The translations under genes were made by a program, and so were the position numbers. A stretch of DNA of 64,000 nucleotides from Sulfobacillus thermotolerans (lineage in GTDB: Bacteria; Bacillota; Sulfobacillia; Sulfobacillales; Sulfobacillaceae). Positions 50,021 to 51,149 of the stretch are shown one piece after another. Below the pieces are notes generated by a model. That model worked only from the letters and a program-made list of their open reading frames with translations. It was not told the origin of the DNA and made no database searches. Positions within the stretch are counted from its first letter, which is position 1; the number at the start of each line of letters is the position of its first letter. The stretch is taken from the NCBI GenBank assembly GCA_002951815.1, contig CP019454.1, forward strand, positions 930,001-994,000, read 5' to 3'.

Positions 50021-50050
50021 TTGCCGTTAAAATACCTCTAGGGGTATAAT
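50021..50050 (+). promoter_or_regulatory. Glutaredoxin promoter overlapped by a CsoR/CstR-like palindrome
   Basis: TTGCCG (50021-50026), an 18-bp spacer and TATAAT (50045-50050). The imperfect palindrome ATACCTCTAGGGGTAT (50032-50047; 7 of 8 positions pair) occupies the spacer and the -10. It is close to the TACCC-TAGGGTA-type operators of CsoR-family repressors (copper, persulfide or formaldehyde sensors). No csoR gene is in the window. Confidence 0.6.
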
Positions 50051-50089
50051 CAAGGCAACATATATTGTTTCTATGCAGGAGGTGGGCAT

Positions 50090-50326
50090 ATGGCCGTTAT
50101 TGTGTATACCACACAAACTTGACCCCATTGCCGGAGCGCGAAGCGGTTCCTGCAAGAGAGGAAAGTGCCTTTTAAAGAGGTGGATGTTTCTAAAAGCGCC
50201 CAGGCCGCACAGGAATTGCAACGCAAATCCGGACAAACCGGCGTGCCGGTGATCATTGTCAATGGGACAGTCATTGTGGGTTTTAATCGCCCTAAATTAG
50301 CTCGAGCACTAGGGGTGAGAGAATAA
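50090..50326 (+). CDS. Selenocysteine-containing glutaredoxin (UPHC active site)
   Basis: A 78-aa glutaredoxin/NrdH-like protein if TGA at 50120-50122 (codon 11) is read through. The expected strand VIVYTTQT leads directly to U-P-H-C, where the usual motif is CPxC. The remainder is a normal glutaredoxin: a helix (RSAKRFLQERKV), strand PFKEVDV, the cis-proline loop TGVPVIIVNG and VIVGF before the last helix. ATG 50090 has AGGAGG 7 nt upstream. A hairpin follows the TGA. It would reduce disulfides or persulfides, with Sec as attacking residue. TGA ends many other genes here, so a local recoding signal is needed. Confidence 0.85.
50120..50155 (+). promoter_or_regulatory. UGA codon plus SECIS-like hairpin in the glutaredoxin gene
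   Basis: After the TGA, TTGC-C-GGAGC (50128-50137) pairs with GTTCC-T-GCAA (50155-50146 read backwards) through nine pairs, one G-U wobble and one C-U mismatch. The apical loop is GCGAAGCG (50138-50145), beginning 15 nt after the TGA with G first. Bacterial SECIS elements are hairpins with a G in the first loop positions at about this distance. Confidence 0.7.
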
Positions 50327-50356
50327 AAACAAGGCCCGTCTTGGGCCTTGTTTTTA
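50325..50356. terminator. Bidirectional terminator between the two TGA-containing genes
   Basis: AAAAACAAGGCCC, a 5-nt loop and GGGCCTTGTTTTT form a perfect 12- to 13-bp stem with A- and T-tracts, serving both convergent genes. Confidence 0.9.
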
Positions 50357-51007
50357 TTATTGACCAGCTGCCTCTAACACAATTTTTAACAATTGGTTCT
50401 CGGGGACAGCTCCTGTGACATCGAGCTTGCCGTTGACGACGGACTTGGGAACACCATAGACATTATATTTGCCTGCGAGGTCTGGGAACTCGCTTGCGTC
50501 CACCATGTCTGCCACTACGTTGGGTGATTCTAGAGCCATATCATGTGCCAGGCGTACAGCCCGGGGACAATATGGTCACGTAGGGGTGGTAAATACCTGG
50601 ATGTGCACAGGTTGTGTTAACTGCGCCAGCGCTTCTTTGGCTTTGTCTGTCAAGTTGACCGTGTGGGTTGAAACGGCTTTGATGTCTTCAAGAAACGCAC
50701 CAAATTCATGCCCACTGGGAATGCCGACAAAACGTATGCCGGTTGCACGGCCTTGGTTGTCTAGCAAGTTGGCAATAGGACCAGAAATTGGCTCGTTACC
50801 GGGATGTCCGGGTTCTAGAACAGGCGCTTCGGAGGTTTGGCTCACCATGACCAAGTCGGAAAGATCCGCTACTTCATTGGCCAAATCGGTAAAGACTTGA
50901 GCGGTTTCCGCTTCAGGACCCGGATAAATCTGAATAGTAACCGAATCCTTTAAGTCTTGAAAGAACTGGGTGACTTGGTCACGAATTTTTTCATCCAAAT
51001 AAGCCAC
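50357..51007 (-). CDS. Selenocysteine-containing glutaredoxin-like protein disulfide oxidoreductase (UPYC)
   Basis: 216 aa if TGA at 50578-50576 (codon 144) is read through. It has two thioredoxin-fold halves, as in the PDO/YruB-type family. The N-terminal half (VTIQIYPGPEAETAQVF..., then GIRFVGIPSGHEF) lacks an active-site CxxC. The C-terminal half has strand VHIQVFTTPT leading into U-P-Y-C, then a helix and the cis-proline loop VYGVPKSVVNG. GTG 51007 has GGAGG 8 nt upstream. After the TGA a hairpin is predicted. Without read-through the product would stop just before its active site. It follows the DUF2892 gene on the minus strand, with its own promoter between. Confidence 0.85.
50536..50578 (-). 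promoter_or_regulatory. UGA codon plus SECIS-like hairpin in the PDO gene
   Basis: Reading the minus strand, CCATAT right after the TGA pairs with ATATGG 40 nt on, then UGU/ACA, CC/GG and GG/CC continue the stem with small bulges. The apical loop is GCUGUACG, 8 nt, beginning 15 nt after the TGA with G first. Loop length, first base and distance equal those in the glutaredoxin gene although the stems differ in sequence. Confidence 0.7.
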
Positions 51008-51149
51008 GTTTTTCACCTCCTTATGTACTGGGGTAAAGACCGCAGGGCAGATGGACGAATCGGGATGCATCAGCCAAGATAGTGCTGCAATCTGGAACCC
51101 AGGAAAATTGTTAAAGACCACTGGTTGAAGGTGATCTCCCGATGTGTTT

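Follow-up and report, generated by a model that had tools for sequence, protein, structure and literature searches.

A glutaredoxin and a protein disulfide oxidoreductase of Sulfobacillus thermotolerans are very probably selenoproteins

Two convergent genes carry TGA at the first position of a CxxC motif

The stretch of DNA analyzed here (referred to as the window) comprises 64,000 nucleotides, positions 930,001 to 994,000 of CP019454, the chromosome of S. thermotolerans Kr1, a single contig of 3,317,203 bp (PMC6803676). Coordinates refer to the window, unless prefixed C1 (genome) or L (locus records). Two thiol-redox genes lie side by side in it, one for a glutaredoxin-like protein (Grx) and one for a protein disulfide oxidoreductase (PDO), each with a single in-frame TGA. 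An earlier note on this DNA had placed both TGA codons exactly at the first cysteine of the CxxC motif, giving UPHC in Grx and UPYC in PDO, and we arrive at the same coordinates and reading.

The Grx gene (50090..50326, plus strand) encodes 78 residues of the Uxx-star/YruB-like type. Its start reads MAVIVYTTQT-U-PHC, with TGA at codon 11 (50120..50122, plus strand), beyond which the frame is open as far as TAA; the sole selenocysteine (Sec) or cysteine residues, U11 and C14, both belong to the UxxC motif. The gene is preceded by a strong Shine-Dalgarno sequence, AGGAGGT (50077..50083, plus strand), and farther upstream by a σ70 promoter-like site, TTGCCG-18-TATAAT (50021..50050, plus strand), a consensus match not above chance. 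The protein matches Pfam Glutaredoxin (6.3e-21) and passes the curated cutoff of the NCBIfam model NF041212, "Uxx-star family glutaredoxin-like (seleno)protein" (70.1 bits; cutoff, 66). Its score against NCBIfam TIGR02196 (GlrX_YruB), 88.3 bits, lies below the cutoff of 88.55, and it is therefore not filed as a GlrX_YruB equivalog.

The PDO gene (50357..51007, minus strand) starts with GTG, encodes 216 residues, and follows the strong Shine-Dalgarno sequence AAGGAGGTG (51014..51022, minus strand). The region around its TGA at codon 144 (50576..50578, minus strand) reads IQVFTTPT-U-PYC, and the frame beyond is again open as far as TAA, so that the intact frames and good ribosome sites that the note had described are borne out for both genes. 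PDO scores 205.6 bits against TIGR02187 PDO_seleno_TRX (cutoff, 185), covering profile positions 2 to 209 of 209. In agreement with the two-domain architecture suggested earlier, an AlphaFold2 model (mean pLDDT, 94.8) predicts two tandem thioredoxin folds; its best PDB matches are the PDOs of Pyrococcus furiosus and Pyrococcus horikoshii (1a8l and 1j08; TM, 0.87), and it also matches the N-terminal domain of AhpF. Archaeal PDOs carry one CxxC per half. The S. thermotolerans protein shares its whole fold with the Pyrococcus enzymes but keeps a single motif, in the C-terminal half and with Sec: the N-terminal fold contains no cysteine, and U144 and C147, both in the UxxC motif, are the only Sec/Cys residues, so that the archaeal arrangement of a CxxC in both folds is absent from PDO.

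The two genes are convergent and meet at a 16-bp hairpin that extends over both stop codons (50322..50358; −23.9 kcal/mol; z, −7.8), which is probably a shared two-way terminator.

The genome encodes the selenocysteine machinery

We consider it very probable, judging from sequence comparisons, that Grx and PDO encode selenoproteins through cotranslational insertion of Sec at UGA. SelA and SelD would make Sec-tRNA-Sec(UCA), SelB would bring it to a stem-loop just downstream of UGA, and the ribosome would read the in-frame UGA as Sec, which would thereby become the nucleophile in the one thioredoxin-type active site that each protein has (UPHC or UPYC). The four components that the note had named as a check were all found in the genome: a tRNA-Sec (C1:1824194; 96 nucleotides [nt]; anticodon UCA; 65.8 bits against a cutoff of 47), SelA (6.4e-141), SelB (1.2e-105, above the cutoff), and SelD (1.2e-106), whose gene carries a TGA of its own at the site SGUGC.

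For comparison, we used 42 genomes of the order, including 8 of the genus. Two genomes of one genus (G018 and G019, 96 to 97% complete) contain no tRNA-Sec above the cutoff. SelA had no match in G019 and only a 19.8-bit match in G018 (24.4 bits with neighbors in frame), a score like those of the weak additional matches that accompany the true SelA elsewhere in the order. TGA occurs in none of the 13 Grx/PDO matches of these two genomes, in which both genes have Cys at the Sec position (TGC in PDO); in the remaining 40 genomes, one or more of the matches contain TGA. The order includes a genus seemingly without Sec machinery through loss. There are exceptions to this pattern. G013 keeps TGA genes, yet its assembly of 140 contigs yielded neither SelA nor tRNA-Sec; G017 is without a SelA match; G002, G004, G024, G037, and G039 have SelA and no tRNA-Sec above the cutoff; and G040 and G041 are without a SelA match, but their assemblies are 63 to 71% complete. 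The missing SelA and tRNA-Sec in TGA-bearing genomes are likely due to assembly gaps.

The same codons could in principle be decoded without selenium, as cysteine or some other residue, by an opal-suppressing tRNA such as tRNA-Cys(UCA). Some tRNA-Cys of the selC* type carry a UCA anticodon (PMC7609411), and the genome has an odd, tRNA-Sec-like tRNA-Cys, but the anticodon of the latter is GCA. The presence of a complete Sec system, together with the disappearance of TGA from both genes in the genomes that are without it, makes this explanation very unlikely.

Candidate SECIS elements follow both TGA codons

Sec insertion at UGA by SelB would depend on a stem-loop, and candidates lie downstream of both codons. 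The candidate SECIS of PDO (50536..50575, minus strand; z, −2.5) includes the apical hairpin CCGGGC-UGUAC-GCCUGG (50548-50564, minus strand), whose five-base loop lies 18 to 22 nt past TGA and contains an invariant GU. In the E. coli fdhF element, the loop is found at about the same distance from TGA. Across 30 sequences, the apical stem CCGGGC/GCCUGG is 97% paired and nearly invariant, the lower part of the stem is not conserved, and covariation does not exceed that of shuffled controls, so that it is conservation and position that support the element. Synonymous variation in the 14 codons past TGA is among the lowest of the gene, ranking 2nd of 204 windows among close relatives and 5th of 208 across the order. 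On this basis, the putative SECIS of PDO is well supported.

For Grx, the minimum free-energy hairpin 6 to 33 nt past TGA (50128..50155, plus strand; z, −2.0) is a plausible candidate SECIS. The stem is weakly conserved, with pairing in 75% of the cells of an alignment of 23 sequences, among which no covariation above shuffles was detected. Past TGA, the Sec forms share an invariant Cys codon TGC and a nearly invariant Arg codon CGG, neither of which is a feature of the Cys forms.

Release factor 2 is a competitor of Sec insertion, and the TGA codons might on that account serve for regulated termination, with short products made most of the time and the full-length Sec protein under some conditions only. 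The 143 residues of PDO up to TGA would make up the entire N-terminal thioredoxin fold; however, this fold is without cysteine and therefore has no redox site on its own, and the truncated Grx would be a peptide of 10 residues. The analysis gave no sign of such regulation. We regard regulated termination as extremely unlikely.

TGA is conserved and is followed by sequence under purifying selection

The earlier note had argued that two such TGA codons in neighboring genes could hardly be due to chance, and the comparison with relatives bears this out: TGA is found in frame at the same codon in 8 of 8 genomes of the genus, for Grx and PDO alike. At position 11 of Grx, 23 of the 30 translated loci have TGA and the remaining 7 (L066 to L068 and L073 to L076) have TGC or TGT. 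Among the closest Grx and PDO matches in the 42 genomes, most have TGA and some have a Cys codon (TGC in the PDO loci L031 to L033, L089, and L090), so that the alignment proposed earlier does place Cys codons in the TGA column of some orthologs. The Sec form of PDO also occurs in records of Tepidibacillus, Paradesulfitobacterium, Desulfosporosinus, Chloroflexi, and Cloacimonadota, and the Cys form occurs in Thermococcus and others.

Against the closest relative, we counted 23 synonymous versus 3 nonsynonymous substitutions downstream of TGA in Grx and 38 versus 0 in PDO. Coding selection is visible on both sides of TGA and is strongest downstream and for PDO, the upstream part of Grx being only 10 codons long. 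These patterns indicate that Grx and PDO are working genes under strong purifying selection past TGA. Elsewhere in the window, TGA is an ordinary stop codon that ends 13 of the 54 long open reading frames, and no UxxC was found among the 40 entries covered of a list of its TGA read-through frames, ranked by their length downstream of TGA, a set that did not contain Grx or PDO themselves. In one genome taken alone, a nonsense mutation would look no different, and both genes might be shortened or passed over in automatic annotation, but the reading of the two TGA sites as pseudogenes or sequencing errors has practically no probability left and is refuted by the conserved codon and frame, by the identical TGA in many independent assemblies, and by the strong purifying selection downstream. 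The selenoprotein reading put forward in the note is supported by the machinery, the Sec/Cys pairs, the selection downstream of TGA, the PDO stem-loop, and the TGA-free genes of the genomes without machinery.

The seven Grx loci with Cys codons reflect a repeated exchange of Sec and Cys inside one bacterial family. Some of these Cys-form genomes still encode SelA, and the exchange therefore affects single genes as well as whole genomes. With close relatives that differ in whether a given gene has Sec or Cys, the order offers a natural setting for studying the benefit of Sec in thiol redox reactions.

The genome contains at least five putative selenoprotein genes

Targeted searches of the genome, whose count is a lower bound, returned at least five predicted TGA selenoprotein genes, namely, those for Grx, PDO, a second PDO, SelD, and FdhA, and probably six. 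The second PDO paralogue (UPHC) lies at C1:1269901-1270533 (plus strand; L034), just upstream of a panC-like gene, and its closest match in G005 has TGC. FdhA carries TGA at CNRTUHAPSV (C1:3189918-3191786). The probable sixth gene is an AhpC/TSA-like frame whose TGA falls within the motif TUSAC (C1:151575-151736, minus strand; L175), the weakest of the 10 AhpC/TSA matches examined in the genome and the only one with TGA. The note had known of no described selenoproteome in this lineage, which holds only in part: as early as 2014, all Sulfobacillus genomes were reported to have a Sec formate dehydrogenase (PMC4378227), and a "PrxU" protein has been reported from S. thermotolerans (PMC7409299), a name that may derive from similarity alone. 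None of the thioredoxin-family (PF00085) matches of the genome has a TGA.

Sulfobacillus is a bioleaching acidophile that oxidizes sulfur and metal sulfides. Six selenoproteins are the threshold for calling an organism selenoprotein-rich, and selenoprotein-rich bacteria are reportedly anaerobes for the most part (PMC5029168), a pattern to which Sulfobacillus, with several putative Sec thiol-redox enzymes, is a counterexample. Genes of this kind may be missed or truncated by standard annotation.

Grx and PDO are new members of catalogued selenoprotein families

Both proteins belong to families that have already been catalogued. A Sec homolog of the AhpF N-terminal domain (Grx-like domain protein) with a UxxC motif is a listed selenoprotein family (PMC9312934), noted in 2006 in Carboxydothermus and Symbiobacterium (PMC1794560). 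PDO has in common with it the TIGR02187 model, the two thioredoxin folds, UxxC, and the bacterial Sec system; it differs in its new host lineage, in an N-terminal fold without CxxC, in the pairing of its gene with a Sec glutaredoxin gene, and in the additional Sec paralogue at C1:1269901. Sec glutaredoxin with UxxC is likewise a listed family (Kim 2011, as cited in PMC9312934 and PMC13188914). With the known Sec glutaredoxin (Uxx-star, NF041212), Grx shares the fold, UxxC, and Cys orthologs in relatives, and it is set apart by the motif UPHC and the acidophilic lineage. The Sec formate dehydrogenase of Sulfobacillus comes from the same genus and would use the same Sec machinery as Grx and PDO, but it is an unrelated enzyme. 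What is new here is the number of predicted selenoprotein genes (at least five), the linkage of Grx and PDO across the order, and their CsoR-type, DUF302, and rhodanese neighbors in related genera.

Gene neighborhoods in related genera point to a possible function in reactive-sulfur and thiol redox

Of the 42 genomes, 25 have Grx and PDO at most 5 kb apart, in convergent as well as same-strand arrangements, and the two are therefore probably partners. Genes found next to Grx in other genera include those for a repressor of the CsoR family (14 of 30 loci), DUF302 (13 of 30), and a rhodanese (7 of 30), none of which is present next to the pair in the S. thermotolerans window. In a related genus, a cluster at L080:1156-3161 (minus strand) combines PDO, a CsoR-like repressor, DUF302, Grx, and a rhodanese, and further genera have similar sets. 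In the CsoR-like protein encoded at L080, there are two cysteines and no histidine four residues before the second one; we take it to be unlike the copper-binding CsoR and nearer to CstR. Repressors of the CstR type sense reactive sulfur and often control rhodaneses (PMC10318464). By analogy with these neighborhoods in related genera, the context suggests a role for Grx and PDO in reactive-sulfur and thiol redox.

In proteins with a thioredoxin fold, nucleophilic attack is made by the first residue of CxxC, and Sec at this position is more acidic and more reactive. It would suit an acidophile that handles metals and sulfur, and Grx and PDO most likely act as fast cytoplasmic thiol-disulfide (or persulfide) reductases. 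It is possible, if somewhat doubtful, that Sulfobacillus and its order are little-described selenoprotein-rich acidophiles that use Sec for thiol and reactive-sulfur redox reactions, with Grx and PDO as the conserved core of a persulfide-handling set (CsoR/CstR-like repressor, DUF302, and rhodanese) that has repeatedly swapped Sec for Cys.

A tRNA-Cys resembles tRNA-Sec

The odd tRNA-Cys(GCA) of the genome (L002:1497-1587, minus strand; G000:C1:184372-184458) is 91 nt long, has a long variable arm and an 8-bp acceptor stem, and scores above the Rfam tRNA-Sec cutoff. It is located immediately downstream of a Cys glutaredoxin-like gene and is like the selC* tRNA-Cys of Mukai et al., as these are described in a review (PMC7609411). 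Many genomes of the order have a second match to the tRNA-Sec model that is similar to this tRNA-Cys(GCA).
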